From positions 1 through 41,855 of the forward strand of contig CAIQIR010000103.1 of assembly GCA_903871875.1 (NCBI GenBank): a stretch of 41,855 nucleotides of DNA, written 5' to 3'. Below are positions 24,637 through 41,855 of this stretch, piece by piece. The first letter of the stretch is position 1, and each line of letters opens with the position of its first letter. The DNA comes from an uncultured Schlesneria sp. (GTDB taxonomy: Bacteria; Planctomycetota; Planctomycetia; Planctomycetales; Planctomycetaceae). The position numbers and the translations under genes are program-made. The notes under the pieces were generated by a model. It was not told where the DNA came from and did not search any database. It worked only from the letters and a program-made list of their open reading frames with translations.

Positions 24637-24675
24637 CCTTGTCCCCCCGACGCCTCCCATTCCGAGGTTTCGGTT

Positions 24676-24748
24676 GGCTGGGTAGCTCAGTTGGTAGAGC
24701 ACAGGACTGAAAATCCTGGTGTCGGCGGTTCGATCCCGCCCCCAGCCA
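24676..24748 (+). tRNA. tRNA-Phe (anticodon GAA)
   Basis: A 73-base cloverleaf. The acceptor stem GGCTGGG/CCCAGCC closes with discriminator A. The D arm is GCTC...GAGC, and the anticodon stem CAGGA/TCCTG holds the loop CTGAAAA with anticodon GAA. The T arm is GGCGG-TTCGATC-CCGCC. CCA is not encoded. A T-run follows directly. An integrase gene starts 116 bases later, so its 3' end is the likely attachment site of the adjoining island. I found no second copy of the tRNA 3' end in the window, so the other boundary should lie to the right of it. Confidence 0.97.
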
Positions 24749-24818
24749 TTTTTACAACCTTCGCTGAGAGCGTGATTTACGCTCGCTCGTCAAACAAGGA
24801 CGAAGCAGCTTAATCCTC

Positions 24819-24846
24819 CCCAAAAGTGGTAATTACCACTTTTGGG
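24819..24846. promoter_or_regulatory. Perfect 28-base palindrome before the integrase
   Basis: The half-site CCCAAAAGTGGTAA is followed immediately by its exact reverse complement with no spacer. It ends four bases before the integrase ribosome site GGGAGAG (24851-24857). It could be an operator for the integrase gene, a recombinase or excisionase binding site, or an mRNA hairpin that hides the ribosome site. A smaller hairpin, GAGCGT/ACGCTC (24768-24784), lies between it and the tRNA. Confidence 0.6.
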
Positions 24847-24864
24847 TGAAGGGAGAGCTGTTTC

Positions 24865-26058
24865 GTGAGTAATTCTTCTGGTTCGTCGCGAGTACCAAAG
24901 TACCGACTGCATCGCCCATCAGGTCTGGCGGTTGCCCGCTTTAGTGGTGTCGATTACTACCTGGGCAAACACGGTTCCGAAGAGAGCCGCAACGAGTACG
25001 ACCGTTTGCTCGGCGAATGGATGATGAAGGGACGCCAGCTCCCAGCCAAGGCTGCCCGAAGTCCCGTTGGGCAGATGACGGTGAACGAGCTAATGCTCGC
25101 CTATCTGCATTTCGCAAAGGGGTACTACCTGAAGAATGGTGAACCAACTGGCGAATACGACGCGATCAGGTATTCGCTCAGGCCCGTACGGCGTCTCTAT
25201 GGGCCAGCGGCCGTGTCCGAGTTTGGACCACTTGCTCTCAAAAATGTCCGCGAGGAAATGATCCGGTCTTCTCTGTGCAGACGAGAGATCAACAAACGGG
25301 TTGGTCGAGTCGTTCGCATGTTCAAGTGGGGCGTTGAAAGTGAATTTGTTCCCCCGATGACGCATCATGCTCTGAGCCAAGTCCGCGGACTGAGTCGTGG
25401 CCGCACTGCTGCTCGTGAATCTGAGCCAGTGAAGCCCGTTTCAGATGCCCATGTCGAAGCAATTAAGTCTCATGTCTCACTAAGAATCTGGGCGATGATC
25501 GAGTTGCAGCGGACGACAGGTATGCGTCCTGGCGAGGTCTGCATCATCCGGTCGGGCGATGTGGACCGCTCTGAGCCGATCTGGGTCTATCGTCCTGGCA
25601 CCCACAAGACCGAACATCATGGCCACGAACGCAAAGTCTACCTGGGCCCGAAAGCTCAGGAAATATTGCGGGACTGGTTGCGAGACGACCCAGCAGCGTT
25701 CCTCTTTTCACCAAAGGATGAATTGGAAGAAAGGAGTAAGGAACGAAGGGCCGAAAGGCAAACAAAGGTTCAGCCGAGTCAGGCTCAAAGAACGAGAAAG
25801 AAATCACCGAAGATGTCTCCTGGGGATTGCTATGAGGTTCGCTCGTACAATCGGGCGATTTCCCGGGCGTGTATAAACGCCGGGATTCCCCATTGGCATG
25901 CCAATCAACTTCGGCACACCGCTGCGACTGCAATTCGTCGGGAGTTTGGCCTCGAAGCTGCCAGCCTGATTTTGGGACATCACGGCATACAGGTAACGCA
26001 AGTCTACGCTGAGCGAGATGAAGCTCGGGCCATCGATGTCGCATCTCAGGTTGGCTGA
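24865..26058 (+). CDS. Tyrosine recombinase/integrase
   Basis: A 397-residue site-specific recombinase that would integrate and excise the island at tRNA-Phe. The N-terminal half is a SAM-like core-binding domain; the catalytic domain starts near residue 190. Seen residues: R221 in TTGMRPGEVC, R350 in NQLRHT, H372 in LGHH and the nucleophile Y381 in VTQVYAERD. The usual H-x-x-R box reads N347-Q-L-R350, with His two residues earlier (HANQLRH); this variant seems usual in planctomycete integrases and need not mean loss of activity. The protein begins at a GTG nine bases after GGGAG. It lies 116 bases from the tRNA in the same direction and converges on a regulator gene with 30 bases between stops. 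Confidence 0.93.
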   Translation: MSNSSGSSRVPKYRLHRPSGLAVARFSGVDYYLGKHGSEESRNEYDRLLGEWMMKGRQLPAKAARSPVGQMTVNELMLAYLHFAKGYYLKNGEPTGEYDAIRYSLRPVRRLYGPAAVSEFGPLALKNVREEMIRSSLCRREINKRVGRVVRMFKWGVESEFVPPMTHHALSQVRGLSRGRTAARESEPVKPVSDAHVEAIKSHVSLRIWAMIELQRTTGMRPGEVCIIRSGDVDRSEPIWVYRPGTHKTEHHGHERKVYLGPKAQEILRDWLRDDPAAFLFSPKDELEERSKERRAERQTKVQPSQAQRTRKKSPKMSPGDCYEVRSYNRAISRACINAGIPHWHANQLRHTAATAIRREFGLEAASLILGHHGIQVTQVYAERDEARAIDVASQVG

Positions 26059-26711: not shown

Positions 26712-27446
26712 ATGAGCTTTCGAGTTTGGTTACAACAACTTCGTGGAGTACGCGGTCATCGTCCTCTATGGCCCGTGCTGCTCGGAGCCGCACTCGATTC
26801 TGAGTTTCATCGCCAGAGATCAATGCCGGAATCTTACAAGGGCGAAGTGTTTAAGAATCGTGATGATCATCCCCTCGATGAAGGAGAGAAAGAAGAGCGA
26901 TTAGTCGCTCAACTTTACCGCTCAGCCCTTGCTGCGGACGGCTGTCTGAAACTTGGATCACAGCGGATCTGGCTACTCGGATTCCAGTGGCCAACTCAGG
27001 GGGGTGTTCGCGAGAAAGGACGCCGGGCAGACTTGGTCGGGATGACCAGTGATGGAGGGCTAGTGGTGTTTGAGGCCAAGGTGGCCAACGGTGACGCTCC
27101 ACTGATCGCAGTGGCGGAAGGACTCGACTATTTGGCCTGCCTCTATCGTGACGACAACTTCACGAAAGTTCGTTCGGGATTCACGAAGTGGATCGCTGCC
27201 CGTAAGTTTTCAACTCCGGACGGCTTCACCGGCGTCGTTCCAGATGCATCGATTCGTCCGACACTTGTGGTTCTTGCTCCTGAAGCGTACTTCTCGGGGC
27301 GGCATGCCCGAAGCATTAGGAGCAAGGACTGGCCGTATTTGGCGGCGGTTGCGGATTCATTCATTCCGTCTGTCGGAGTGAAGTTTACCGCCACAGACTT
27401 TCGATCCACCACCCTATGGGTTCCACCAACTCCTCCGCAGGGTTAG
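26712..27446 (+). CDS. Uncharacterised protein with PD-(D/E)XK nuclease-like motif
   Basis: About 244 residues, family not recognised. A restriction-nuclease-like core is visible: an upstream helix with E61-E62, then D107 in RRADLVG, and E121-A-K123 in LVVFEAKV on the next strand, i.e. D-x13-E-x-K. This suggests a metal-dependent nuclease, perhaps a restriction-type enzyme, but the rest has no feature that settles it. The start at 26712 (MSFRVWLQQL) follows GGAA by six bases; an in-frame ATG at 26670 exists. It diverges from the winged-helix regulator. Its stop overlaps the stop of the convergent RNase J-like gene by four bases. It is probably cytoplasmic. Confidence 0.6.
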   Translation: MSFRVWLQQLRGVRGHRPLWPVLLGAALDSEFHRQRSMPESYKGEVFKNRDDHPLDEGEKEERLVAQLYRSALAADGCLKLGSQRIWLLGFQWPTQGGVREKGRRADLVGMTSDGGLVVFEAKVANGDAPLIAVAEGLDYLACLYRDDNFTKVRSGFTKWIAARKFSTPDGFTGVVPDASIRPTLVVLAPEAYFSGRHARSIRSKDWPYLAAVADSFIPSVGVKFTATDFRSTTLWVPPTPPQG

Positions 27447-28750
27447 GAGACTACTAGCGTTTCACCGTCCGTCAATATTCTCAAATTCGGTGAGAACTCG
27501 GCGAACTTGTCGGGCTCGAACGTGTGAATTGGGACGACAGTCTTCGCATTGATTTGTCCGATAAAATCAACAATATCATCGTAGAAAATGTGACCGCTTG
27601 TATGGGATTCGATTAACTTGCCGTTCGCTTCGTCGAGAGCAACTTTGACAGGTTGCCAGTCAGGACGATCCAGGTAGCCTCTCCAGCGAGAGTAAATACA
27701 CCGCGTGTCTTCGGAGAACGTTCCACCAAAATCGCTGTCCAACATGGACGGTCTGAAGATCATCACGTACTTCGACGGATTTGAACGAATTTCTGTTAGC
27801 CCCACCTTGGCCGGGACCATGAAAGAAAAATGTTTTTCTTGTCCTTTCCGCTGAATTTTCTCCTCCAAGAATCTGGGGAAGAAAACTTTCACGTGTTCCG
27901 AACATTCCGGTCTCGGGATCGACGTTTCTGAGGCAATCAGGTGCATCACGAATGCTGTGTAGGCGTCAGCGACAAATATGCGATTCGTCTTCTTCGACGC
28001 TCGAAAGAAGCCCACAAGTCGGTCAACGTGCTGCGGTGAAAAAGAGGCCAGCATGAGTCCAGGTGCTGATTGAATGTGATTCACAATCTCATCTTCGAGT
28101 TCGTACTCGTTCTGCCCTCGGTAATTGTTGTGGCTGATGTGTGTTCCTTCCATCAGCAGCAAGTCGATGTTCCGATTCTTGACGGCTTCGATCAGGGATT
28201 CGTGCATTCCCGGCTTTCGACCGTGCATTCGTAAATCCCCCGAGTAGAGTATCGTTTTGCCCTCCGCCTCGATCAAGAATGCTTGTGCTCCGTAGATTGA
28301 GTGATCCACCGAAAATGCAGTCACTCTGAAGTCTCCGATCTCCGTCGTTTGACCTGACTGGATTTCCCGATGTCGATTTTGTGGGAGATGTGGTTGACCG
28401 GCAAACATTGATCCCGCGAGCATCATTTTGCTGGTTCCGACGCTGGCGTATACCGGAATTCCAGCCTGGGAATGTCGGAGCAGACCGGTGTGATCTTCGT
28501 GAGCGTGAGAAAGCAGGATGGCATCTGGTCTTGGTTCCGCGTCATCAAACAATCCTGGCACTCGTGGCAGAATTCCGATGTTTCGAAGTTCTTCGCTTGA
28601 CCCCCGACGCAACGCCGTTGTGTCGTGAGGTTCTCGATCTTCGTTGAACAGTGGCGTTCCCACGTCCAGGATGATCCGACTTTTCTGCGTCGCAATTTCG
28701 ATGCAGTTCCCGCCGATTTCGTGAGTACCCCGGTGGATTGTCAACTTCAT
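27443..28750 (-). CDS. RNase J-like metallo-beta-lactamase-fold hydrolase
   Basis: A 435-residue protein with a complete metallo-beta-lactamase site: H82-A-H84-E-D86-H87 in SHAHEDHTG, H150 (SVDHSIYGA) and D172 (LYSGDLRMHG). A beta-CASP-like part with HTSGHIF and VVPIHTFEPD near the C-terminus resembles the H-x-S-G-H and P-V-H signatures of RNase J. The opening MKLTIHRGTHEIGGNCIEI also fits that group. It is shorter than RNase J (about 555 residues) and lacks its C-terminal domain. Cleavage or exonuclease activity on RNA, or possibly DNA, is likely. As an accessory-island gene it may have a defence or tRNA/RNA-processing role rather than housekeeping decay. No clear ribosome site is seen before the ATG. 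Confidence 0.82.
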   Translation of the reverse strand: MKLTIHRGTHEIGGNCIEIATQKSRIILDVGTPLFNEDREPHDTTALRRGSSEELRNIGILPRVPGLFDDAEPRPDAILLSHAHEDHTGLLRHSQAGIPVYASVGTSKMMLAGSMFAGQPHLPQNRHREIQSGQTTEIGDFRVTAFSVDHSIYGAQAFLIEAEGKTILYSGDLRMHGRKPGMHESLIEAVKNRNIDLLLMEGTHISHNNYRGQNEYELEDEIVNHIQSAPGLMLASFSPQHVDRLVGFFRASKKTNRIFVADAYTAFVMHLIASETSIPRPECSEHVKVFFPRFLEEKIQRKGQEKHFSFMVPAKVGLTEIRSNPSKYVMIFRPSMLDSDFGGTFSEDTRCIYSRWRGYLDRPDWQPVKVALDEANGKLIESHTSGHIFYDDIVDFIGQINAKTVVPIHTFEPDKFAEFSPNLRILTDGETLVVS

Positions 28751-29813: not shown

Positions 29814-32800
29814 TTAGTCTTGCCGTGCCACAAGACCCGCCAATGGAAAATGGATCCAGCAGGAGTCCACTTCATTGCTCGTCCGTTGCAACATTTCTCG
29901 GTACGCAGTGAGCTGTGGGGAGTAGGTGGCTGCTTTGGCCGCACAATCTGCGCGTCGGATCGGCGCACTCTTATGATCAATCACCACGATATGGCCGTCC
30001 GGGAGTTGAAGGGCCAGGTCGATCGTGCCATTCCAATAACCGCCATCGGCGCGAGAAACCGTTACGGGAGTTTCCGTGAACCACCGTGCACCTGGGAATT
30101 CTGTTTCCACCCAGACACAGAAGCGAATTCCGGATGACACAATCGCAGACGGGGCCAGGAGTCCGGAAACAGAAAACGAAGACAGACACCGCTCGGCTAC
30201 GGCTCCTTTTTGTACGGTATCGAACGTGCGCATTGAGGGAATGGCCGCAAAGTACGCATGAACCGCATTGCCGATGTCGCTGTAGTGTTCCTCACTTGCG
30301 CCTGATGGAAAATACACTGGTCCGGTCAATTCTCGGACGCTGAATACTCCCAATTCCGTGGACACGGACATTTGACTGGGGCGGTGAAAACGGGATTTCG
30401 TCGGTCTCGTTTTCGGCATATTTGGAACTTCAATCCAGCGTTCTGCTGTCGATGACGGGCAGCGGCAATCAGCAACCATATCGGCGCTCAAGTTACGGAT
30501 CACAAGAGTGGTGTCAACGTTGGGAATCGAATGTTCACCCTCACCCTGAGTCGAATTCAAGAGTGCATCAACTGCAGAAACGCGATTGAGCCAGTCATAC
30601 TTTCCGTCACGATGTGCGAAGATCAGCTTTTCCTTTGCACGAGTGCAGCCGACGTAGAGAAGGCGGAGGCTTTCTTGAACCGCCCGATTCGCGCGCTCGG
30701 TCCCTTCCGGTGAAGCCAATGCATCGTTTTCTAGGCCGCTCCCCGTGGCAAGGCCGCCAAATGGTCCGTCGGCATAGCCAAATGGCCACACCCAGGCTTG
30801 AAGAGTGCGGCCGTTGAGCGGATCGCCTTCCCCAGAATTACCCCCCGTCACGATCGGCGACCACATATTCGCATCGCGTTCTGCATTGAGTCCACTGAGA
30901 ATGACGACCGGCCATTCGAGCCCCTTGGCGGCGTGATAAGTCATGAGCGTGACAGCGTCGTGCCCTAGTGGAGGGTGCCGAGTATCTGAGTTGCTATCGG
31001 TCATTTGCTCGAAATACAGGATCAGTCCGGTGATCGTGACAGCCTGTCCGGTTTCCAAGGCGGTCTCTTCGTATTCACTTGCATGAATCAGGAGAGAATC
31101 TAGGTTCGCGCAGCGCCGTGCAGGATCTCCCCAACTTTGAACGAGTGTCGGGAGACCGAGAGCCTCGATGAGTTGCTGGACCACGAGGAGCGGCGACAGC
31201 GTGCGTCGATCGAGGTTATCAACTGCGGACAACCGGGCGTCTCCTTCCCATGGGATTAGTGGTCGATCGGCGTCTGGGTCACCACGTTCCGCCGCATCCT
31301 CTGCCGCACGGAGGGACATTAATCGCTCAAGAAGCCATTCAGGAGTTTCGAGCAGGGGGTCGCTGAGAATGTGGATGATTGTTGCGGCCGCCAGCGAGTC
31401 GCTACGGTCGGCGACCAGGCGCAATCCCGCCATTAAGAGTACGCCTTCCCGTGTCGAGAGCAAACCGGGACTGCCGAGCAAATAGGGGATGCCGACAGCG
31501 TCAAGCGCCTTCGCCAATTCATCAAGCAGCCGGTTCGTTCTTTCAAGCACGGCGATGTGGCGGAGAGGAGTCCCCTCCCCACGCAGCTTTGAGATGCCGC
31601 AGGCGAGTGCCAGCGCGTCGTCCGTCTGGTTCTTGGTGGTCAGTAGCCACCGCTCGACTCCTCGGGGACGCGGCGGTTTCTGGGGTTGCTGCACGGCATT
31701 GTCCCCAAAGAGTGGGGAGAATAGGAGTCCAACCAGTTGAACGAGGCCCTTTTGGCTGCGGTGATTATTAGGCAGGTCTGTTCTGGCAGCGTCGGTGGCA
31801 TTGGTCCAGACTTCGTTGATCAGTTCGGGGTCTGTATCACGAAATCCATAGATGGCTTGCTTGGGATCACCGACCCAACGGCTTCGAGGAGCGATCCGAC
31901 GGAGTCGTTGAAAGATCGCGAGCTGGAGTGGATTGGTATCCTGAAACTCGTCGACGAGAATGAGATCAAAATCTTTCGCTAGGCTCGCGGAGAGGGAATC
32001 GTCTTCCAACAATTCGAGGAAAAGAACCTCCAGATCGGTGAAGTCGACCAACCCACGCTCCGATTTGTACGTGTCATAATGTTTGCCAAGTCGGATTGTT
32101 TCGTTGGCAAGCAATTCGGAAAACTCGCGGATGTCCGCATGCAATTGAGGGTTTTGGCGAACCTGGGCCGCAAAAGTCCGAAGCGGATCGAGCATTGCAT
32201 CAGCACCAGATTTCAGGCCTGCTTTCAGCCGTGCCGCCTGAAGAAAACTGTTCCACACCGGGTTCGATTGTGATCTGAGTCGGTACAGCTTCTTTCGAGC
32301 GTCTTCGGTGACCTTCGTCGAGTCGTTCGGAATTGTCGCGAAGCTCGCGAGGGCCTGTTCCACCAGTTGAGTCAGGAGCGACGCTGAGTTAGGCGTGGCT
32401 GCAACACCTTGCGGTGCCAGCAACACACATACACGGTCAGCACTGCTCGCCATGTCCTGTCGAAAACGCTCATCATCGATCCGGTTTCCACGTTTTGCAG
32501 CCAGCAGTCGTAGAATCCGCTCTTGTAAATCGGTTGCCGCCAAGCGTTCCGCCTTCACATTCAAATCTCGCCAGCTGTCGATTGGCATTGTCCCCAGCAA
32601 CTCATTGAGGGCTCGCTTTCCAGCAACCTCGGTGATTACTTCCAGTCGCGGCGATAGCCCGAGTTCAATCGCGTAGCGGCTCAAGAGTTGGTGGGCAACG
32701 CTGTGAACGGTCCCGATCGCGGCCAATTCGAGTCGGTCTGCCCACCGATGGGCGACGGCTGGATTCCCGTCCGCACCGCACAAGAGCCTTGCCTGAATGC

Positions 32801-32954
32801 GTCCTTTGAGTTCAGCCGCAGCTTTCTTAGTAAACGTCGTGGCAAGAATACGGGAGGGGTCCAATCCTCCGATCACCGCGGTCGCTACCGTTTCACAAAG
32901 ATCGGTAGTTTTTCCGGAACCTGCGCCAGCGCGAACAATTTCGAGAAGCGACAT
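29814..32954 (-). CDS. AddA-like UvrD-family helicase with C-terminal RecB-type nuclease
   Basis: A 1046-residue SF1 helicase-nuclease that would unwind and degrade linear double-stranded DNA from ends. Walker A is A9-G-A-G-S-G-K15-T16. LATTFTKKAAAELKGRI (motif Ia), D335-E336 in LVDEFQDTNP (motif II), QAIYGFRDTDPEL (motif III), MTYHAAKGLEWPVV (motif V) and LLYVGCTRAKEKL (motif VI) follow. The C-terminal PD-(D/E)XK nuclease has D979 (NGTIDLALQL), D993 and K995 (VVIDHKSAP). It overlaps the AddB-like gene by one base (TAATG), so the two are translated as a pair. It is shorter than Bacillus AddA (about 1230 residues). Its place in an island beside a DUF262-HNH gene points to anti-phage or plasmid DNA degradation rather than the housekeeping complex, but this is inferred. 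Confidence 0.9.
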   Translation of the reverse strand: MSLLEIVRAGAGSGKTTDLCETVATAVIGGLDPSRILATTFTKKAAAELKGRIQARLLCGADGNPAVAHRWADRLELAAIGTVHSVAHQLLSRYAIELGLSPRLEVITEVAGKRALNELLGTMPIDSWRDLNVKAERLAATDLQERILRLLAAKRGNRIDDERFRQDMASSADRVCVLLAPQGVAATPNSASLLTQLVEQALASFATIPNDSTKVTEDARKKLYRLRSQSNPVWNSFLQAARLKAGLKSGADAMLDPLRTFAAQVRQNPQLHADIREFSELLANETIRLGKHYDTYKSERGLVDFTDLEVLFLELLEDDSLSASLAKDFDLILVDEFQDTNPLQLAIFQRLRRIAPRSRWVGDPKQAIYGFRDTDPELINEVWTNATDAARTDLPNNHRSQKGLVQLVGLLFSPLFGDNAVQQPQKPPRPRGVERWLLTTKNQTDDALALACGISKLRGEGTPLRHIAVLERTNRLLDELAKALDAVGIPYLLGSPGLLSTREGVLLMAGLRLVADRSDSLAAATIIHILSDPLLETPEWLLERLMSLRAAEDAAERGDPDADRPLIPWEGDARLSAVDNLDRRTLSPLLVVQQLIEALGLPTLVQSWGDPARRCANLDSLLIHASEYEETALETGQAVTITGLILYFEQMTDSNSDTRHPPLGHDAVTLMTYHAAKGLEWPVVILSGLNAERDANMWSPIVTGGNSGEGDPLNGRTLQAWVWPFGYADGPFGGLATGSGLENDALASPEGTERANRAVQESLRLLYVGCTRAKEKLIFAHRDGKYDWLNRVSAVDALLNSTQGEGEHSIPNVDTTLVIRNLSADMVADCRCPSSTAERWIEVPNMPKTRPTKSRFHRPSQMSVSTELGVFSVRELTGPVYFPSGASEEHYSDIGNAVHAYFAAIPSMRTFDTVQKGAVAERCLSSFSVSGLLAPSAIVSSGIRFCVWVETEFPGARWFTETPVTVSRADGGYWNGTIDLALQLPDGHIVVIDHKSAPIRRADCAAKAATYSPQLTAYREMLQRTSNEVDSCWIHFPLAGLVARQD

Positions 32955-35635
32955 TAAAGGGTTTCCTGGAGGCCACAGAGTCGCTGATAGTCACAATAGC
33001 GGCAGACAGATTGCAAGTCACCGTTGCTGAGGTTGGCGTCCAATACAATCTCAGCGCCCCTTGACCACTGCGACGAGGATTGAAGAGGTCTTGCAGGGAT
33101 GAGATTTCCGGCGGTCAGCCACCCGTCACCGGCGTCAATCGCCTTGGAAAACTCTTCCCACACGGAGCGTATCGAAGGGGCCATAATCACTGAACCGCCG
33201 GTGCTTCCAACAACCGGGCTTCCGGACGGGGTTAACAGTTGAGCATCGGAGAGGATCAGATAGGCCACTGCGGGAAACGTCGTGGCATCGGGCGAGCGGC
33301 TGTACGCATAGGTTGCCAGCTGCACTGCTTTCCCGTTGCTGATCATCTCACGGTACTTGTTCCGTCCCGCATACTTGAAGTCGACGATCACTTCGCTTCC
33401 GTCGTCTCGGGCAGCGACACAATCAATCCATCCATTCAACGTTTTGCCGAAAGCAACTTGTGAGACTTCGACTTCAAAGCCGACGATGCGATACCCACCT
33501 GCCGCGAGAGCATCCACCAAGACACGAGTGGCACTCAACATTTCGTCAAGAAGTTTTTGTCGCTCAATGAGCCGGTCGGCTTGCGCGAGGGGAGCGGCGT
33601 CGAGAGGTAACCGCGCTTCGAACACCTGTCGCACTCGGTCAACGGCAGCGGCAACGGATGGCAGTGGCCCTCCCCAGCCGAAGACTTGCTCCAAAACACT
33701 GTGGCAGAATGTTCCTTTGAGCTGGTGCGTATCCGGCAAATCGGCGACGGGACTCGGACGCAACTTGGCTTGATGGTTCAAAACCCACTTTAGCGGGCAT
33801 CCCAGACGGTCCTGCAATTCGGTGGCGGAAACCGTTGTGCGGTCCCGAAGATGTCCCGGCGGCACCTTCCATGTTGAACGCGCTGGCTGACGCGGTTGAA
33901 TAGGTTGCTCGATGACGACGAAGTGAGCGGGACTTACCGCATCCCCGTCGTTGGCCGTAATCAGATCTTCCAGCACAGGCGGGTTGTCACAGTCTTTCAG
34001 GACCGTACGAATAGCGAGCCACAGCGGGTGCCAACGCTGCTCAAGATCTTTCGGCATCAGAACTGCCAGAAAAGACTCTTCGACCAGCGAAAAGCCGCGG
34101 GCTTCGGCGGATCGAAGTGCCGAAAGCTGACGACTACCATCGTCCAGATCGAGTCCGGCAGCACGCAACTGTGCCAGCTGACTGGCAGTCCATCGGCAAC
34201 CCGATACATCTGCTGCACCAAGGCCCAGCCAAATCAGACGCTTGCAGGGCGAAACGATTTCGGCGAGGGAGCGGACTCGTACCGGACCATCGTCGGCTTC
34301 GATGCAGGGCGTGGTCTCGATGCCGATAGAAAGTGCTTCATCGAGGAGTCGCGCAAGCTGCGGTTCCGAGATTTCCACACCTTGACTCTGAACCAGTTCA
34401 CCGAGCAGCGACGCCTGACCGGCGGCAATCTGCAATGCGCGGACAAGCTCAGATGGTGCATTCGGATCGTCAGCAAGCAACACTGCACGGCCAGTGGCCC
34501 ATTGAGCGACGAGACTGCAGCGTTTGCCAATCATCTCCGATGAAATGGCGCTCCCACGGGCAACCCGTTTGCACAGCAGCCACATGGCCAATCGCTCTCG
34601 GATCTTGCCATCAGGGTCGTTTTCCTCGCTGCACAATTCAGTGACCGCTTCCTCCCATTTGCTGCTTCCGAGACCGGGCTCTTGAGCAAGGGAGTCCGCC
34701 AGACGGGCGGCGACACGATGCCGAATTGGCTTGATGGGCAGCGTAAGGAAACCGAGCAAATCCTGTGGATCGACTGGCTCCCAGCATAGTGCCAAGCTAA
34801 GCGGCAGCACCTGCAAGACTGGATGTGCTCGGGAGAGTGCAGATGCTCCCGTCGTCGGCAATCCGATACGCTGCAGACAAGCGTCAAGTCGTAACGCCAC
34901 ATGATCATCTTCGCAGTAAATGACCGTGTCGGCGAGGTTCACGGCGGCGGTTGCCAGCGATGCCGCGACAAATTCACAGGCCGCCGTTTCGCTCCTGGTC
35001 ACGACATATCGGAATGTCTGTTCCTGTACAACGTAATTCGAACCCAGCGCCAGCACGACCGCTTGTGCCGACCAGAAGGCCGTACCTTTCGATGCTCTCG
35101 GTTGGGCGATTTCTGGATTGGCGGTTGTCAGTTTGGCGAGAACTGACCGCCAAAGCACGGGCCATACTTCAGGAGCGTCGTAGAGAATGCAGCGATGTTG
35201 CGGGAGCGTTTGTCCTTGCTCCAGGGAGGACACCACGCGCCATAATCGTCCCGCTTCTCCGGGAAACATGAATGATCTGCCCCGAGCAGCACGAGACAAA
35301 TCCCTGACTAACATTGGAAGCGTATCGCGATCCGCCTCGTCCCATCCTGCAAGAAGCAATTCGTCGCGACGCGATAGCAGCTCCGAGGCAGTTGCCCAGC
35401 GGTCGGTTGCCATGCTCCCCTTGAAAGCAGCGTCTGGAACGGCGTCGAGTGCATTTGCAAATTCTGTGACACGACTCGCTTTGTGCGTGTTGGGACACGC
35501 CAATCCGAGTTGAGTCTCCATCCATCCAAGCAGTGTTTCCGGACCGCCGCAAAACTCGTTGACGAGCGGGGTAACTGTTCCAAGTCCCGCTGGCTGTCGT
35601 GCCAGCCGAATGTGCAGGATTGACTCTGGAATCAT
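32954..35635 (-). CDS. AddB-like Fe-S PD-(D/E)XK nuclease subunit
   Basis: An 893-residue partner of the AddA-like protein. The C-terminal nuclease has D738 (NGWIDCVAA), D752 and K754 (VIVDFKYAG), with QLATYAY after it. Four Cys, C613 (RLGCPLKW) and C878-x2-C881-x5-C887 (VCRYCDYQRLC), have the spacing of the AddB iron-sulfur 'staple' that pins the nuclease domain. The N-terminal helicase-like part has no Walker A motif (it starts MIPESILHIRLARQPAG), so ATP hydrolysis by this subunit is unlikely, as in several AddB relatives. It begins 87 bases after the DUF262-HNH gene on the same strand. AAGGG lies 11 bases before the ATG. Fewer residues than Bacillus AddB (about 1166). Confidence 0.87.
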   Translation of the reverse strand: MIPESILHIRLARQPAGLGTVTPLVNEFCGGPETLLGWMETQLGLACPNTHKASRVTEFANALDAVPDAAFKGSMATDRWATASELLSRRDELLLAGWDEADRDTLPMLVRDLSRAARGRSFMFPGEAGRLWRVVSSLEQGQTLPQHRCILYDAPEVWPVLWRSVLAKLTTANPEIAQPRASKGTAFWSAQAVVLALGSNYVVQEQTFRYVVTRSETAACEFVAASLATAAVNLADTVIYCEDDHVALRLDACLQRIGLPTTGASALSRAHPVLQVLPLSLALCWEPVDPQDLLGFLTLPIKPIRHRVAARLADSLAQEPGLGSSKWEEAVTELCSEENDPDGKIRERLAMWLLCKRVARGSAISSEMIGKRCSLVAQWATGRAVLLADDPNAPSELVRALQIAAGQASLLGELVQSQGVEISEPQLARLLDEALSIGIETTPCIEADDGPVRVRSLAEIVSPCKRLIWLGLGAADVSGCRWTASQLAQLRAAGLDLDDGSRQLSALRSAEARGFSLVEESFLAVLMPKDLEQRWHPLWLAIRTVLKDCDNPPVLEDLITANDGDAVSPAHFVVIEQPIQPRQPARSTWKVPPGHLRDRTTVSATELQDRLGCPLKWVLNHQAKLRPSPVADLPDTHQLKGTFCHSVLEQVFGWGGPLPSVAAAVDRVRQVFEARLPLDAAPLAQADRLIERQKLLDEMLSATRVLVDALAAGGYRIVGFEVEVSQVAFGKTLNGWIDCVAARDDGSEVIVDFKYAGRNKYREMISNGKAVQLATYAYSRSPDATTFPAVAYLILSDAQLLTPSGSPVVGSTGGSVIMAPSIRSVWEEFSKAIDAGDGWLTAGNLIPARPLQSSSQWSRGAEIVLDANLSNGDLQSVCRYCDYQRLCGLQETL

Positions 35636-35722
35636 CGTTAGAGCACCCTTCTGAACAAGCGTCGGTATGCCGTCCTACAGGAACAGTGTTTGGTTTACTG
35701 AATGAAAATGCTCAGCTCGTCT

Positions 35723-37564
35723 TTACTCCTGGTCAGCGTCTTCGTCATCAGCCACGGCTTCGCCCGTATCGACGATTGGCTTGCCCATCACTTTGGAAAT
35801 CTCGGCGATTAAGAGTTCCCGACGGGCTTCGATGAAACCGGGATAGTCGTCTTTGCGAAGAAAAGTGGGATCAATGTGGTGCGTCTTCAGAATGGCATCC
35901 ATCCCCGCATTATCCAGTTCGACGCTCTTGTGGTTTTGCAACTGCTGCAGATATTCGCTGGGAGCCTTGCCGCCGATCATCCGGTTCGACTTGTACGAGA
36001 TCGGAGTCTTGTTGAGGATCGAGTTGAATCGCTTGGCTTCGACGCCGTTCTTAATGCACCAGTCTTGCGGAAACACATGGTGAATGTCGAGCTTGCACTC
36101 TTCCCAATCCGTCTCGTCGAGTTCACGGATTGTGCTCTTCCAGAAGAAGTCTTTCGCACCGTTACGCTGAATCAGGACATTAATCCCCTTGTACGCGGCA
36201 CTGTTCCGTGACCGCAGAGTATCGAGCCGCTTCGGCTGGAAGTTTGCGTCTCGCACGGTAGCCGGTTCATTTGACCCGCCATCAACCCACTCCATGACTT
36301 CCTGCAAGTCGTTGGCCATCCGCGTTTCGACGGCACCGCCATAGAGCTCGCCGAGAACACCGCTCCAAAACCAACGGCAAACGCGGTCGTAGACTTTCTG
36401 CTCAAGCCAGCGGTCTCCGAGGAGCGCGAGAATAGACGCAAGCGGCACGAGCTGTGTGCGATATGGTAAGTCGTGTTTGGAGAAGAAGGATTCTTTGCGC
36501 AGAAACTTCGCAGCTTTCCAGAAGCCTTCGGCAAGAGAATCCTTCAAATCCTGGTACGCGGATAGAGGCAACCCCAGCACCGATTCTCGCTTCGCGCTGA
36601 CGCCGGTAATGTGCTTGCCAGTCTTACCTGCGGCAATGTCATCTTTCCGTCGCTGGTATGTGTGCAACAGCGACAAGCCTTGAAAGAAATCGGTCGGCTG
36701 AATCTCGGCCAGCATCCGCTGGCGACCAATCCAATGACTAATGCCTTCAATCTTGTCTTTCTTGCTTCCGAACCACTCATCGCGCAGATTGACGCCATCG
36801 GCTGCGTAAGTCGCCGTGATGAGCTCGAAAACAGATAGGGGCACGCCACCAGTGTTGACCTTCTCAAACACGAGGCAGACGGCTTCCTTCTTGTTATCTT
36901 TTTTTAGCTCGATGACTGGGATGTCGTAGTTGCGAAATTCATTCAGAACTGTCATGCGAAACTGCATGTATCTCGCAAATTTGTTCGCATCGTATGCGTT
37001 CAGACCATATTCCCATCGGTCGGAATTGAGGATCTGATCGCACGGGAAGTAAAAGTTTTCGTATTCCTTTTCTGACGTACGGAGATCGAGGGTGATGTCT
37101 CGTCCAAAATTCTTTCGCTGTGTCCTGTCGGCATCGACACCAACAATAGCATCCTCAATGTGCCCGGGACCGTCCAACGCGCGTTCGATGTTGACGTAGT
37201 AGTATCGCTCCAGCGGTCGTTTCTTTTCGTCGCGAGTCTTGACCGGCTGGTTCAGTATTAACACCTGCGTTAGCGATGTCAGTCGCTGTTGTCCATCCAG
37301 GATGAGCTTTTCCGCTTTCGTCGGAGAGCAAGCGGCCGGGTCAAGTCCCTCAACAGGACGCACTTTAAATTTCGCCTCGCCACCGGTTTCCAAGAGCATT
37401 ACCGCGCCAACCGGAAATGCGCGGGCGATGCTTACTAGAAGCGACCGGATATGCTCGTCGTCCCAGACCCAACCTCGCTGGAAATCGGGCAGCTGGATTT
37501 TGCCAGCTTCGACACCTCGGAGAAGGTCGGCTAGCCGCGTTTTGGTCGAGTCGAAGGTAGACAT
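35723..37564 (-). CDS. DUF262-HNH protein (GmrSD/SspE-like)
   Basis: A 613-residue protein with an N-terminal DUF262 domain: QLPDFQRGWVWDDEHIRSLL (residues 24-43) and LILD90-G-Q-Q-R94-LTSL, the ParB/sulfiredoxin-fold motif used for nucleotide binding in GmrS and SspE. VFEKVNTGGVPLSVFELITATY is also typical. The C-terminal part has an HNH/DUF1524-like nuclease signature, with H495-H496 in LDIHHVFPQDWC and NSILNKTPISYKSN, then IGGKAPSEYL. Relatives are modification-dependent (type IV) restriction enzymes or phosphorothioate-sensing effectors. Restriction of invading DNA is thus likely; the modification sensed is unknown. It lies between the protease gene (64-base gap) and the AddB-like gene in one minus-strand operon. 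Confidence 0.88.
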   Translation of the reverse strand: MSTFDSTKTRLADLLRGVEAGKIQLPDFQRGWVWDDEHIRSLLVSIARAFPVGAVMLLETGGEAKFKVRPVEGLDPAACSPTKAEKLILDGQQRLTSLTQVLILNQPVKTRDEKKRPLERYYYVNIERALDGPGHIEDAIVGVDADRTQRKNFGRDITLDLRTSEKEYENFYFPCDQILNSDRWEYGLNAYDANKFARYMQFRMTVLNEFRNYDIPVIELKKDNKKEAVCLVFEKVNTGGVPLSVFELITATYAADGVNLRDEWFGSKKDKIEGISHWIGRQRMLAEIQPTDFFQGLSLLHTYQRRKDDIAAGKTGKHITGVSAKRESVLGLPLSAYQDLKDSLAEGFWKAAKFLRKESFFSKHDLPYRTQLVPLASILALLGDRWLEQKVYDRVCRWFWSGVLGELYGGAVETRMANDLQEVMEWVDGGSNEPATVRDANFQPKRLDTLRSRNSAAYKGINVLIQRNGAKDFFWKSTIRELDETDWEECKLDIHHVFPQDWCIKNGVEAKRFNSILNKTPISYKSNRMIGGKAPSEYLQQLQNHKSVELDNAGMDAILKTHHIDPTFLRKDDYPGFIEARRELLIAEISKVMGKPIVDTGEAVADDEDADQE

Positions 37565-37628: not shown

Positions 37629-38636
37629 CTATCCGAACAGACTCGGACCATCCCCGACACCGAGTTTCTTTGCGGGCCGACGGACTGAAACTGGACGGAG
37701 AACTGCCACGACGGTGTTTTCGCCAGTCGCTCCGAGTTGGTTTTCAGCAGTCCAAAGTGGAATCGCCGATACGCGGTACGTTCCCGATGCCTGCCCGAAA
37801 TCGAGGTGACACTGGTCATCGACCGGAAGACCAGTCGACGCGGCGCGATAGATCGCGCCGTCGTTCTCGACGGACTTGTCTTTGGGCAGGAAATACCCTT
37901 CCGTTTTAAAAGATTCGCTCGCGATTGAGTATTCGATCCGCAGCCGGAGTGCATCGCGTAGCTCGTCCTCGGCACTGATTCCAAAAAGGTTTTTCTGGTT
38001 GGCGTTCCCGATTGTCCCCTTCTGCGTCGGCTTCAGTTTCCAGGTGAAGAATACCGCCGCGACGGACTCAGGCGATGTTTCCGCGTAGCGCCGAATCGTC
38101 GCTTCACGTGAGGCGTGATAGATGGAAGCCAAGGTGATGATGCCAGCCGCGTCAGTAACCGCCTTCGCGTCGCGACCGAACCACGGCTGCGGGAACAGCA
38201 GTTCGGCTGCACCGATGTCGCACAGCATTTCGAGAAAATCTTCGACATTGTCGCGGTCTCGATATCGTGCGTCTGTGCGACACCACGCCTTCGTCGTGTA
38301 GTCCGCGAAAAAAGTGTGGCTGATTTCATGTGCAACGCTGAACCGCTGTCGTGTCTCTGGGCGGTCCACATTCACCCGCATTGTCATACCGCCGCTACCG
38401 TCGGGGACGAGTTCCGCGTCTGGACTATGGACCGGGACCTCTTCGCTCCGGTTGATCCCCCGAAGACTCGCAAGGACGTCGACGCTGATTGGAAGTGACG
38501 GTTCACCGAACGACGCGACGTGTAGGCCAATCAAATCTTTCGCCTTCGCACGGATCGCCTCGGGAGCATCACGGCATCCCGTGGAGCGGACGAGCTCGTC
38601 GATGAGAGCCTTTGTTGACCGCGCCGGATGCGTCAT
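37629..38636 (-). CDS. ImmA/IrrE-type zinc metalloprotease
   Basis: A 335-residue protein with the zinc-protease motif H103-E104-I-S-H107 (RFSVAHEISHTFF) and the third-ligand region FLEMLCDIGAAELLFP (about 134-149), diagnostic of ImmA/IrrE. A C-terminal extension of about 150 residues, family unknown, may be a sensor. Such proteases cleave a partner XRE repressor after a DNA-damage or phage cue. The partner is encoded just upstream with an ATGA overlap (38633-38636), so translation is coupled. That overlap and the start MTHPARSTKA fix the start at 38636. The layout matches the HTH repressor/ssDNA-activated protease pairs that control some CBASS operons; cleavage here is an inference. Confidence 0.9.
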   Translation of the reverse strand: MTHPARSTKALIDELVRSTGCRDAPEAIRAKAKDLIGLHVASFGEPSLPISVDVLASLRGINRSEEVPVHSPDAELVPDGSGGMTMRVNVDRPETRQRFSVAHEISHTFFADYTTKAWCRTDARYRDRDNVEDFLEMLCDIGAAELLFPQPWFGRDAKAVTDAAGIITLASIYHASREATIRRYAETSPESVAAVFFTWKLKPTQKGTIGNANQKNLFGISAEDELRDALRLRIEYSIASESFKTEGYFLPKDKSVENDGAIYRAASTGLPVDDQCHLDFGQASGTYRVSAIPLWTAENQLGATGENTVVAVLRPVSVRRPAKKLGVGDGPSLFG

Positions 38637-39073
38637 GTCGGTCGCCTCCGGGCAGTATTCATGAGGGCAAAGTAAAGCTGGTGCCACTCATCAACAGTCT
38701 GTGGTTGTGTACCACGGAACTTCATTGCCGCCAGCTCCTGAAGATCCTGCGGTGTGAGCTGGTCACGCATTCTGTCACGGAACTCGGCCAGGGAAGGCGG
38801 AATTTCAACCGGTCCCTCGGGAGCTTTGACCGTCGCCAAAGCCAGCAATTCAGCGAGGGTCGTTGAAAGGGCTTGTGCAATTCTGAGCAGAACGTCAGCC
38901 GAAGGCTTTTTCGTACCTGCGGTGTCCCGCTCCAATTCCCACAAGTACGTTTTCGAGATCTTGGCCTTACTGGCGACGTCTTCGAGCGATAAGTCCCTGT
39001 CCTCACGAATCTTGCGCAGTCTCGACGCGAGATTGTTTTCTGGCTCATCGGATCGTTTCTCTGTTTCATTCAT
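38633..39073 (-). CDS. XRE-family repressor (HTH_3)
   Basis: A 146-residue protein with an XRE/Cro-type helix-turn-helix at about residues 17-75: LASRLRKIREDRDLSLEDVASKAKISKTYLWELE, then LLRIAQALSTTLAELL. A C-terminal tail of about 70 residues could dimerise or hold the cleavage site for the adjoining ImmA-type protease. It is transcribed away from the TM/MBL/E2 genes, and the 125-base gap holds a 35-base palindrome over their promoter, the expected operator. A possible own promoter on the minus strand (TTGCTT, 16 bases, TAGACT) would start transcription almost at the ATG; no clear ribosome site is seen, so a leaderless transcript is possible but weakly supported. Confidence 0.92.
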   Translation of the reverse strand: MNETEKRSDEPENNLASRLRKIREDRDLSLEDVASKAKISKTYLWELERDTAGTKKPSADVLLRIAQALSTTLAELLALATVKAPEGPVEIPPSLAEFRDRMRDQLTPQDLQELAAMKFRGTQPQTVDEWHQLYFALMNTARRRPT

Positions 39074-39114: not shown

Positions 39115-39149
39115 TCGTTCGTTATTGTTGACTAAACAACGACGAACGA
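39115..39149. promoter_or_regulatory. Palindromic operator in the divergent defence promoter region
   Basis: Outer arms TCGTTCGT (39115-39122) and ACGAACGA (39142-39149) are perfect. Inside them, after two mismatches, TTGTT (39125-39129) pairs with AACAA (39135-39139) around the centre GACTA. The element covers the -35 box and most of the spacer of the plus-strand promoter and sits just upstream of the XRE gene. It is the best candidate for the XRE binding site, repressing the four-TM/MBL/E2 operon and perhaps the XRE operon itself. Confidence 0.65.
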
Positions 39150-39156
39150 TTATGTT
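39128..39156 (+). promoter_or_regulatory. Sigma70-type promoter of the four-TM/MBL/E2 operon
   Basis: TTGACT (39128-39133) and TATGTT (39151-39156) are exactly 17 bases apart, 42 bases before the first start codon. The palindrome at 39115-39149 overlaps it. Confidence 0.6.
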
Positions 39157-39198
39157 CGCTATAGTTATACAGCAAAATCAACCAAACCCGGAAATTCG

Positions 39199-39972
39199 AT
39201 GCGTCTCGTCCCCCAATTCTTCGCTCTCACCGACCGTTACGAACGGAAGGCCCGGCTGCTGCCTGGCTTGCTTGTCGCGGTCGGACCGGCGTTGACAGCC
39301 GGAGCACTGATCCACGAACTCTCAACGTGGTACACGGCGGCGGGGGCGGCGGTCGGGGTCGAGTTTCTGGCAGCAATTGTGTTCGGTCATTACGCCTGCG
39401 CTCGTGGGCGCGCCATTGAAGAATCTCTGTGGGCATCTTGGGGAGGTCCACCGACAACACGATGGTTGCGGCCAACGGACACGGAATGCTCCGAACAGCA
39501 GAAATCAAAGTGGCGCGGCGCGATCAAGCGAGTGACTGGGATGACGATTCCAGCGTCGGTTCCAGAGGGAGCAACGGCGGCGAGCGTTGACCTGACAATT
39601 GCCGACGCGACCCGCCAACTCCGGTACACGCTCCGCAACAAACCCAACGCCACGATTCTCCAGTCCCACAACGAAGAATACGGATTTGCCCGGAATCTGT
39701 ATGCGGTCCGGTTCCTCTGGGTGACGCTCGCCGCCATCTGTGTCGCTTGCTGCTGCGTCGCCTTCTATCTCGAGTTGAAGCCGTATGCCGCCATCGCAGC
39801 ATCGGGAACGGTTCTCGTCGCATCGATTCTCGTCGCGACAGAACTCCCGAAATATGTGCGTCGCTGCGCCGACAGATACGCAGAATCACTGTTCGCCGTC
39901 GCGATGATGCCCGATTTTCCGTCCCCGCTGGATGACCAGAGACAGAAGTCCGAGTCCACCGACCGGACATAA
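39199..39972 (+). CDS. Four-TM membrane protein, candidate effector
   Basis: A 257-residue protein of unrecognised family. Hydrophobic helices at about 20-38 and 44-66, then a soluble loop of about 100 residues, then helices at about 170-190 and 195-213, and a charged C-terminus. A segment NEEYGFARNLYAVRFLW leads into the third helix. As the first gene of an XRE-controlled operon with an MBL-fold and an E2-like protein, it could be a membrane-acting effector like the small TM effectors of CBASS and related systems. That is inference from context only; it might equally be the target of the E2-like protein. CCGGAAA lies just before the ATG at 39199. Confidence 0.7.
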   Translation: MRLVPQFFALTDRYERKARLLPGLLVAVGPALTAGALIHELSTWYTAAGAAVGVEFLAAIVFGHYACARGRAIEESLWASWGGPPTTRWLRPTDTECSEQQKSKWRGAIKRVTGMTIPASVPEGATAASVDLTIADATRQLRYTLRNKPNATILQSHNEEYGFARNLYAVRFLWVTLAAICVACCCVAFYLELKPYAAIAASGTVLVASILVATELPKYVRRCADRYAESLFAVAMMPDFPSPLDDQRQKSESTDRT

Positions 39973-40000
39973 CCCTTTATTTCCTTTTCGGAGCCTCACA

Positions 40001-41134
40001 ATGCCCAAGCTCACCTTTTATCCCCTCGGCAATGCCGATACCTGTCTCATCGATCTCGCGAACGGCAAGAAACTGCTGTTCGACTATTCCGATGAGCGGA
40101 ATCCCGATGACGACGCTGACAAGCGGATCGACCTGCCGAAATTCCTTCGGGACGACCTGAACGCGGTCAAGCGGGACTATTACGATCTGGTCGCCATCAC
40201 TCATTTGGACGACGACCACACTTGCAAGGCCGACGAATTCTTCTATCTCGACAACGCGAAGAATTACCAAGGGGCCGGTCGAATCAAGATCCGCGAACTG
40301 TGGGTGCCAGCGAACGTCATCACGGAAAGCCGGAATAATCTGGAACCCGGTGCTCAGGCTATTCAGGCCGAAGCAAGACACCGTCTGAAGGAGGGCTACG
40401 GCATCCAGGTGTTCTCGCGCCCGCAGAAGCTAAAAAAGTGGCTGGAAGACCGAGGGCTGACGATTGAATCGCGATCCCAATTCATCACTGATGCAGGACA
40501 GGTTGCTCCGGATTTCACTATTGGGATCGATGGGGCAGAATTCTTTGCGCACTCACCGTTCGCGTGGCGGCAGGACGAGAACACGGTCATCGACCGAAAC
40601 GGTGATTCGCTGGTCGTTCAGCTGACGTTACAGGTGGACAGCGTAAAAACCAAGGTCATTCTCGGTGCGGACGTTGATCACACGGCTCTGTCCGACATCG
40701 TCACAATTACGAAGTCCCACAATAATGAGGCTCGACTGGAGGCGGATATCTGGAAACTCCCCCACCATTCCAGCTACCTCACTCTCGGGTCGGATCGTGG
40801 TGATGACGAGACAGAACCAGTCCCCAATGTTGCGTGGTTGTTCGAAGACCAGCTTCAGCGGGGAGGCATCATCGTTTCGACAAGCTGGCCGATTCCGACC
40901 GAAGGAAGTGATGAAGACGAAAACCCTCAGCCCCCACACAGGCAAGCTGCGAACTATTACAAACGGATCGTTGACGAGAAGGATGGCGAATACATCGTGA
41001 CGATGGAATACCCGCGACAAAGCGCGCCTCGACCGCTCGTCATTGAAGTCGATTACCGGAAGGCCAGAGTGAAGAGATCACAGTCGGTCGGTGCTGCCGC
41101 CCTCATTCCCGTTTCCGCACCCCGAGCAGGCTGA
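40001..41134 (+). CDS. ComEC/Rec2-type metallo-beta-lactamase-fold protein
   Basis: A 377-residue soluble protein. The metal motif is T67-H68-L-D70-D-D72-H73, the H-x-D-x-D-H form found in ComEC-like domains rather than classical H-x-H-x-D-H. It is followed by KVILGADVDHTALSD and by LPHHSSYLTLG, the equivalents of the later metal-ligand and K-x-H-H-G-S motifs. A hydrolase acting on nucleic acid or a nucleotide is likely; the substrate is unknown. The start at 40001 is set by CGGAG seven bases upstream, 28 bases after the four-TM gene. The E2-like gene follows after four bases. MBL-fold proteins are known near prokaryotic E2/E1-like genes, so a joint role is likely. Confidence 0.85.
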   Translation: MPKLTFYPLGNADTCLIDLANGKKLLFDYSDERNPDDDADKRIDLPKFLRDDLNAVKRDYYDLVAITHLDDDHTCKADEFFYLDNAKNYQGAGRIKIRELWVPANVITESRNNLEPGAQAIQAEARHRLKEGYGIQVFSRPQKLKKWLEDRGLTIESRSQFITDAGQVAPDFTIGIDGAEFFAHSPFAWRQDENTVIDRNGDSLVVQLTLQVDSVKTKVILGADVDHTALSDIVTITKSHNNEARLEADIWKLPHHSSYLTLGSDRGDDETEPVPNVAWLFEDQLQRGGIIVSTSWPIPTEGSDEDENPQPPHRQAANYYKRIVDEKDGEYIVTMEYPRQSAPRPLVIEVDYRKARVKRSQSVGAAALIPVSAPRAG

Positions 41135-41138
41135 GGCA

Positions 41139-41855
41139 ATGACTCTCGAATATATCGATCTGCCAGGCGACCCAGTTGACGCCGACGCACTTGTGATCCC
41201 TCGTATGCGCGATCTCGTGTCGGCGATAATTGGCGGAAGACTGGATTTTGTGCGGCTGTTGGAATGCCGCAAGAGTATTGGTACGTCCATCGAGATTCTG
41301 GTAATCGAGGTCGATGTCGAGCGACCGCAGGTCGTGGTGAATCCTATTCGAAGGGTCGAACGACTGGCTATTCTGTTGGCGGTGGATGATGAAACGTACC
41401 CGGAAGTGATTGCGATTCGGAAGGATTTTCCGGTCGTTCCGCACTTGAACATTACCGTAGACGAGAACACTCGAAGCCTTTGTCTGTACGACCAGAGTTG
41501 GGACGAAGTGAAGGCGCGATGGACGGCTCCAGGTTTTATCGAACGCGTACGCAGATGGCTGGCTGATACGGCAATCGGCTCGCTCCATCGCGAAGACCAG
41601 CCGCTGGAGCAGGTGCTCGCTGGCTCAGGCTATGCCCTCGTAATCCCGTGGTCAGCGATCAATGCCAATGACGACACTGCGACGCGACTGGACGTGGTAC
41701 TCATTCCCTCGGACGAGCATCGGGGAACATTGATAGCCATCCCGCTGAGTGCAAAAGAGCGACCGAAGAAGCTGCAATTCACCGCGTCCATGTTCTTCGC
41801 AGGCTCACGCCAACACGGTGTCATCCGCCGTGCTCCAAGGACGCTTGAAGACCTG
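41139..41855 (+). CDS. Prokaryotic E2-like (ubiquitin-conjugating fold) protein, N-terminal part
   Basis: At least 239 residues, cut by the window end. I translated it from the ATG at 41139, four bases after the MBL stop, with GAGCAGG eight bases before it. Residues about 45-150 look like an E2 core: strands IEILVIEVDV and RLAILLAV, a PH102-L-N104 box in the place of the HPN motif, then the catalytic-Cys candidate C115 in SLCLYDQSW, followed by WTAPGFIERVRRWLADTAIGSLH. In prokaryotic E2-E1 fusions (for example Cap2 of type II CBASS) the E2 part comes first and a ThiF-like E1 domain follows. Residues 160-239 would then be the linker, and the E1 lies outside. Thioester transfer of a protein tag is the predicted role. 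Confidence 0.72.
   Translation, partial: MTLEYIDLPGDPVDADALVIPRMRDLVSAIIGGRLDFVRLLECRKSIGTSIEILVIEVDVERPQVVVNPIRRVERLAILLAVDDETYPEVIAIRKDFPVVPHLNITVDENTRSLCLYDQSWDEVKARWTAPGFIERVRRWLADTAIGSLHREDQPLEQVLAGSGYALVIPWSAINANDDTATRLDVVLIPSDEHRGTLIAIPLSAKERPKKLQFTASMFFAGSRQHGVIRRAPRTLEDL

Follow-up and report, generated by a model that had tools for sequence, protein, structure and literature searches.

The window analysed here is a stretch of 41,855 nucleotides from an uncultured Schlesneria sp. (assembly GCA_903871875.1, contig CAIQIR010000103.1, forward strand). At its right end lies a three-gene operon which, judged by its sequence, is a 6A-MBL system, a known but little-studied kind, in a planctomycete-like genome. 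The operon encodes a four-transmembrane (4TM) protein, a metallo-beta-lactamase-fold (MBL) enzyme and the beginning of an E2-E1-JAB protein of the Cap2/3 type. The locus thus belongs to the ubiquitin-like conjugation systems that NCBIfam labels anti-phage, with a putative role in defence. The MBL ends in a conserved, Gly-bearing tail and, by analogy with the CD-NTase of type II CBASS (cyclic oligonucleotide-based antiphage signalling system), is probably itself the conjugated modifier.

The operon and its family

The three plus-strand frames described by the first-pass annotation are all present, with gaps of 28 and 4 bases (Table 1). Homologues favour the Met at 40001 as the start of the MBL. 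This protein matched the NCBIfam family NF058524 ('6A-MBL_enzyme') with 388.9 bits (E = 2e-116), far over the 220-bit cut-off, and because of this match the assignment of the three genes is far beyond chance. The third gene matched positions 1-181 of 665 in NF058523 ('6A-MBL_cap2_3') with 143.7 bits (7.7e-42); it stays under the 320-bit cut-off for the whole E2-E1-JAB protein because the contig end cuts the gene, position 41855 being the end of the assembly contig and not merely of the window. The same gene matched Pfam Prok-E2_A (1.6e-27). Both family names carry 'anti-phage', and the MBL and E2 genes are adjacent on the same strand with a 4-base gap, in the gene order that defines 6A-MBL systems. 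The earlier proposal of a ubiquitin-like conjugation defence system truncated at the edge therefore holds as to family and truncation, with the defence function putative.

The 6A-MBL core is already known, and its kinship to CBASS is already in print. In Iyer et al. 2006 (PMC1779556), the pair of MBL and E2-E1-JAB protein is listed as operon type 6a. In our reading, Goxy and Pnap in this row stand for Gluconobacter oxydans and Polaromonas naphthalenivorans; the plasmid loci of these two species appear in our survey as L010 and L013 (loci and genomes are cited by our numbers, L and G). The name '6A-MBL' was not found in a literature search that reached only a minority of subscription papers and preprints.

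Table 1. Features of the operon and of its promoter region, in window coordinates
Feature	Position	Strand	Length and basis
4TM protein, likely membrane effector	39199..39972	+	257 aa
6A-MBL, ComEC-like metallo-beta-lactamase-fold protein, metal motif H68-x-D70-x-D72-H73	40001..41134	+	377 aa; NCBIfam NF058524 2e-116; fold 9ic4 E 2.1e-13
Disordered MBL C-terminal tail, residues 361-377, ending P-R-A-G; putative conjugation tail	41081..41131	+	pLDDT, alignment
N-terminal part of Cap2/3-type E2-E1-JAB protein, E2 with H102 and C115	41139..41855	+	239 aa, open at contig end; Pfam PF14457; NF058523; alignment of 84
Codon for predicted E2 catalytic Cys115	41481..41483	+	invariant in 83 homologues
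CapH-like helix-turn-helix (HTH) repressor, divergent	38633..39073	-	PADLOC capH 1.8e-15; Pfam HTH
CapP-like ImmA/IrrE (M78) metallopeptidase	37629..38687	-	PADLOC capP 9.6e-22; Pfam PF06114
Inverted repeat, candidate CapH operator	39115..39149	.	13/15 pairs, 5-base spacer; 0/1000 shuffles reach score
Sigma-70-like promoter match overlapping inverted repeat	39128..39156	+	2 found vs 1.1 expected: weak alone

Relatives were gathered by tblastn against plasmids (244 records with the MBL) and by a scan of genome contigs (279 relatives confirmed, the best 80 fetched). With plasmid and viral loci added, and the window's own copy (L099) included, the survey set comprised 96 loci with a full-family MBL. 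The co-occurrence of the three genes, which the first-pass annotation had singled out for a survey, recurs: Cap2/3 lies nearby in 93 of the 96 loci, and the 4TM family is found in 29 of these. As for the other three, L075 and L123 end at a contig edge right after the MBL, and L051 shows no Cap2. The full-family MBL of L051 (5941-7131) also lacks the tail discussed below and is followed by a 307-aa protein without a Pfam match.

In the alignment of the window fragment with 83 homologues of 700-900 aa (84 rows), the E2 His and Cys (H102 and C115 in the window), the E1 Cys and the E, HxH and SxxD residues of JAB were invariant among the homologues. The E2-like pattern noted in the first-pass annotation is therefore confirmed for H102 and C115, and not for the Asn of H-x-N, which varies. 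The E1 and JAB domains, which the annotation sought beyond position 41855, lie in the same polypeptide as the E2 in relatives; no continuation of the cut gene was found elsewhere in its own assembly. One other match in the assembly covers positions 297-405 of the E1 part (57.7 bits) and is taken for an ordinary ThiF/MoeB relative. We infer that an intact E1 and JAB are present in this genome beyond the contig end.

The distribution of the system is sporadic. Among 59 near-kin genomes, an MBL over the cut-off was found only in the genome of the window, and 20 of the 59 had some match at E 0.001. Across the phylum, such an MBL was carried by 2 of 392 genomes, one of them that of the window; Cap2/3 accompanies it in both, cut in the window's case, and two genomes are too few for statistics. 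The second genome (L125) encodes an MBL ending APRFGRCR, a 778-aa Cap2/3 and a 4TM gene. In five other genomes of the phylum (G115, G269, G310, G354, G383), Cap2/3 was matched only in part and under the cut-off, and the MBL not at all at E 1e-25. The L015 stretch, composed of a transmembrane (TM) gene, WYL, MBL and Cap2/3, was matched in 31 of 5426 complete Escherichia coli genomes, on chromosomes and plasmids, with at least 80% of it present in 29; in the 8 listed of 37 records, RefSeq annotates these genes as hypothetical or as WYL or Mov34 family. Upstream of the 6A-MBL operon in L077 (949-4481), and also in L084, lie split Cap2-like pieces and another MBL, perhaps a second conjugation cluster, which in L077 additionally holds a short E2-looking protein.

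The MBL and its C-terminal tail

The T-H-x-D-x-D-H motif by which the MBL had been recognised reads T67-H68-L-D70-D-D72-H73, and the active site is conserved in the homologue alignments. Among solved structures, the ComEC MBL domain is the nearest, and it was also reached by sequence (7.6e-6). The body of the protein was modelled confidently, with a mean pLDDT (predicted local distance difference test) of 91.7 and a lowest block mean of 74 near residues 191-200; at residues 361-371 and 373-377 the pLDDT fell below 50. Although the linker varies, 97% of 93 sequences have Gly as their last aligned residue, and R375, A376 and G377 were invariant in a hand-picked set of 29 MBLs.

We scored the tail as R-x-G followed by at most five residues at the C-terminus. 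It was present in 86 of the 93 Cap2-linked MBLs, and in 69 of the 75 left after sequences more than 90% alike were removed. Four of the seven misses (L030, L042, L069, L097) carry the motif at the same place in another frame. The Gly/Ala tail characteristic of type II CBASS is thus found on the MBL, and not on a CD-NTase. When other proteins of the same loci were scored for R-x-G within the last 8 residues, the motif was seen in 0/35 4TM proteins, 2/53 patatins, 5/94 Cap2, 0/11 WYL and 4/30 M78 proteins, against 87/95 MBLs in the same count; interior 8-mers of the MBL contained it in 99 of 4209 cases. Other MBLs bore the tail in 1 of 34 cases, the second MBLs among them sitting in Cap2-bearing loci and so showing only that they differ from the tailed enzyme; for those next to a 4TM gene but without Cap2 in view, the count was 0/12. 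After the effector gene, the 6A-MBL operons of L020, L021, L046, L047 and L072 carry such a second, distant MBL gene.

The tail Arg uses all six codons and the Gly all four (87 rows, that of L008 being a spurious internal match), which argues that selection acts on the protein and that the motif is not a ribosome-binding-site artefact. Some MBLs continue for 1 to 5 residues after the Gly (e.g. RNG, AQ, RA, RWR, VINQ), as do the precursors of ubiquitin-like proteins, and at least 15 changes in the state of this extension can be placed on the MBL tree. In Jenson et al. 2023 (PMC10097602), conservation of the terminal Gly/Ala in the cGAS of CBASS is reported to be confined to systems with full Cap2 and Cap3; the enzyme forms a thioester with Cap2, is conjugated mainly to lysines and is released by Cap3 cleavage. 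A separate ubiquitin-like protein (Ubl) or CD-NTase is probably unneeded in the window system, since the MBL bears a conjugation-like tail. Within the reach of the literature search given above, we found no paper that states the MBL to be a conjugated modifier, and none that combines Cap2 with a metallo-beta-lactamase plus Cap3/CBASS or ubiquitin-like.

Effectors, mechanism and alternatives

The first gene encodes a four-helix membrane protein, as first described: its hydrophobic runs merge into four (18-42, 43-69, 164-201, 193-217), and the model is confident (pLDDT 89.3) and all-helical. Residues N158, G162 and R165 were invariant in a 15-row alignment, from which L013 was dropped after it proved not to be a 4TM protein; the helix motif is HNEEYGFARN. 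No significant family was found in Pfam, NCBIfam, PADLOC or PHROGs. The Pfam model of the S-4TM effector family was not matched, and the only hit was a weak one to DUF805 (E 0.76).

The combination of this protein with the other two genes had been considered unrecognised. Its core is the type 6a operon, and the 4TM partner recurs. Across the 93 Cap2-linked loci, the effector slot is occupied by a patatin phospholipase in 52, by the 4TM family in 29 (own copy included) and by 4TM-like proteins, counted apart, in five; the remaining seven had none called, and several of these are cut by contig ends. Matches of the 4TM profile in other TM proteins (L086, L091, L095, L096, L011) are weak and may partly reflect hydrophobic helices. 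On the MBL tree, patatin and 4TM replace each other at least 12 times. The slot therefore appears to be filled mostly by membrane attackers, and the 4TM protein is likely the killer in the window.

The 4TM family also occurs next to MBLs where no Cap2 is seen. Of its 12 viral loci, two hold both MBL and Cap2, nine have an MBL next door and show no Cap2, and one is cut by a contig edge before the neighbour. The MBL-4TM loci with no Cap2 seen are the viral L112-L113 and L116-L122 and the plasmid-borne L007, L016 and L017; all five of their MBLs that were scanned match PADLOC PDC-M48B, in which the 4TM partner has no model. Since Cap2-linked and Cap2-less loci both pair them, the 4TM protein goes with MBLs with or without conjugation, as effectors do in type I and type II CBASS.

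The best reading, which we consider fairly probable, is that the operon is an analogue of type II CBASS in which the MBL takes the position of the CD-NTase. The E1 domain of Cap2/3 would adenylate the C-terminal Gly of the MBL and hand it to Cys115 of the E2, which would join the MBL to lysines of target proteins; JAB would remove the MBL again and trim the few residues that follow the Gly in some relatives. Conjugation would prime the MBL, and on infection its metal-dependent activity, of phosphodiesterase type, would make or remove a small signal. That signal would open the 4TM protein (a patatin phospholipase in most relatives), so that the inner membrane is broken and the infected cell killed. 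CapH and CapP would hold the operon low until DNA damage occurs. A signalling role is favoured here, since 86 of the 93 loci have a membrane effector nearby and since Cap2 acts on a signal-making enzyme in CBASS. The catalytic step could be nuclease action or nucleotide hydrolysis, as the fold is nearest to ComEC. To a wider formulation we give slightly better than an even chance: an MBL with an intact metal site would serve as a ubiquitin-like modifier, joined to proteins by Cap2-type E1/E2 through its R-A-G tail. It would parallel the CD-NTase in a pathway that works by second messenger or nuclease and employs a new 4TM effector family, and the Cap2-less MBL-4TM pairs would be its type I-like counterpart.

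Several observations weigh against the CBASS-like reading. Neither E1 nor JAB is visible in the window's own genome, and the contigs fetched from the genome scan lean to near kin. The tail of L068 (RIG, then GGRFA), counted among the 86, is a loose match; in three Cap2-linked MBLs the Gly tail lacks Arg (YEHG in L008, PHGAS in L014 and L114); and the sole match among the other MBLs, the second MBL of L021 (169 aa), ends RGGLS. The full-family control without Cap2 is a single locus (L051), the remaining controls being distant MBLs. The fold of the 4TM protein found no match in the PDB (best E 0.36) or BFVD (best E 0.14), and because genes up to about 5 kb away on either strand were accepted as effectors, a few of these (e.g. 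L053, L080) may be bystanders. Just 45 of the 93 loci had a regulator called. Moreover, the MBL is no nucleotide cyclase, and a nuclease is suggested as readily by its modelled, ComEC-like fold.

The last point leads to the alternative that survives best, although we regard it as unlikely (the probabilities of the alternatives are not mutually exclusive). The MBL itself might kill as a DNase of ComEC/HamM type, with conjugation through the tail carrying it to phage or host targets or unlocking it there, and the membrane protein acting as a second effector. The ComEC fold fits this, as do the related MBLs of Hachiman and AVAST, which are DNases unlocked by a partner protease, and the weak PADLOC matches of the window MBL to LmuA and RTasMBL. 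However, the gating inserts of HamM are described as disordered, whereas the body of the window MBL was modelled with high confidence, and a membrane effector at so many loci would be redundant.

It is less probable still that the 4TM protein, instead of being the killer, is a receptor in the membrane or the target onto which the MBL is conjugated. In favour of this, the MBL lies in the same cluster as the 4TM gene in 11 of the 12 viral loci, two of them with Cap2 and the twelfth being the edge-cut one; against it, the alternation with patatin phospholipase fits an effector.

We think it quite improbable that Cap2/3 conjugates another protein, such as a Ubl encoded elsewhere, with the R-A-G tail of the MBL serving only as a docking or JAB-cleavage signal. 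Bub and Bil systems, which use separate Ubls, provide the precedent. (Both systems are named in PMC13373217.) No gene for a separate beta-grasp Ubl of the Bub/Bil type lies between the three window genes, and none is annotated in the relatives' operons that were examined, where many genes are labelled 'hypothetical'; both statements rest on annotation and gene order, no Ubl profile having been run. The tail ends in Gly like those of conjugated modifiers, and the repeated changes of the residues after it also speak against this alternative. A small DUF2188 gene precedes the MBL in L018.

An ordinary type II CBASS with its CD-NTase beyond the contig end has the E1-E2 homology to Cap2 in its favour and is nonetheless very hard to credit, as the MBL and E2 part match the 6A-MBL models and the relatives examined line up MBL, E2-E1-JAB and patatin genes without an annotated CD-NTase in the operon. 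The first-pass annotation was right that this is not simply type II CBASS and that the window holds no CD-NTase: none was detected among the 20 window proteins run through PADLOC (for the UvrD protein, among the best 25 of 49 matches). Other nucleotidyltransferase-family genes lie in the flanks of L004 and L018.

If the CBASS-like reading is true, bacteria put unlike enzymes, a CD-NTase or an MBL, under the same ubiquitin-like priming. The tail bears on what is modified by the conjugation machine of the 6a operon, described in 2006, a point on which the literature search given above turned up no paper, and the 4TM protein represents an effector family without a model in the libraries searched.

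Regulators, genomic context and known systems

The CapH-like and CapP-like genes are divergent to the operon and lie at its promoter, the arrangement expected of a CapH+CapP pair. The inverted repeat sits in the 125-base divergent gap; 1 of 334 window stretches of 125 bases reaches its score, a count that can include the repeat's own stretch. In the 93 loci, regulators were M78 with HTH in 15, M78 alone in 14, WYL in 11 and HTH alone in five, with none of these in 48. DNA damage elicits a response from both CapH+CapP and CapW, a WYL protein (PMC13373217).

A caveat is that a minus-strand run in the window begins with these HTH and M78 genes, which may serve it too. Directly behind the CapP-like gene, this run (29814-37564, minus strand) comprises genes for a UvrD helicase, a PD-(D/E)XK nuclease and a GmrSD-like DUF262 protein, and has the appearance of another defence operon served by the same divergent promoter. 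Further left, a tRNA-Phe at 24675 is followed by a tyrosine integrase (24865-26058), which suggests an integrated island; positions 24675-26058 are likely the left edge of a genomic island carrying the defence genes. Inside it, at 27443-28750, lies an unrelated second MBL-fold protein with RMMBL (beta-CASP/RNase J-like) features. Window proteins to the left of the operon include DUF1501, PSCyt1, PSCyt2 and PSD1 domains, which are typical of planctomycetes.

With the 6A-MBL systems of row 6a in Iyer et al. 2006 and of NF058524/NF058523, the window operon shares an MBL followed by an E2-E1-JAB protein. In the part of that paper available to us, usually two genes are given and no tail is described, whereas the window has a 4TM gene in first place, CapH/CapP-like genes opposite and the R-A-G tail. 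The PADLOC candidate PDC-M48B likewise has an MBL of the H-x-D-x-D-H type adjoining the same 4TM family; it differs in having no Cap2 seen nearby, no R-x-G tail and an MBL of another subfamily. The window MBL did not match the PDC-M48B models, its only PADLOC matches being RTasMBL and LmuA. HamM and the Avs MBL nucleases share a ComEC-like MBL employed in defence, but are activated by a partner protease and have disordered gating inserts, where the 6A-MBL has a conjugation protein instead. Type II CBASS, consisting of CD-NTase, Cap2, Cap3 and an effector, has in common with the window system a Cap2-type E2 (with E1 and JAB in relatives), a membrane-attacking effector, control by CapH/CapP or WYL and, where Cap2 occurs, a partner enzyme with a C-terminal Gly; the window system differs in having an MBL instead of the CD-NTase and, judging by relatives, a fused JAB.

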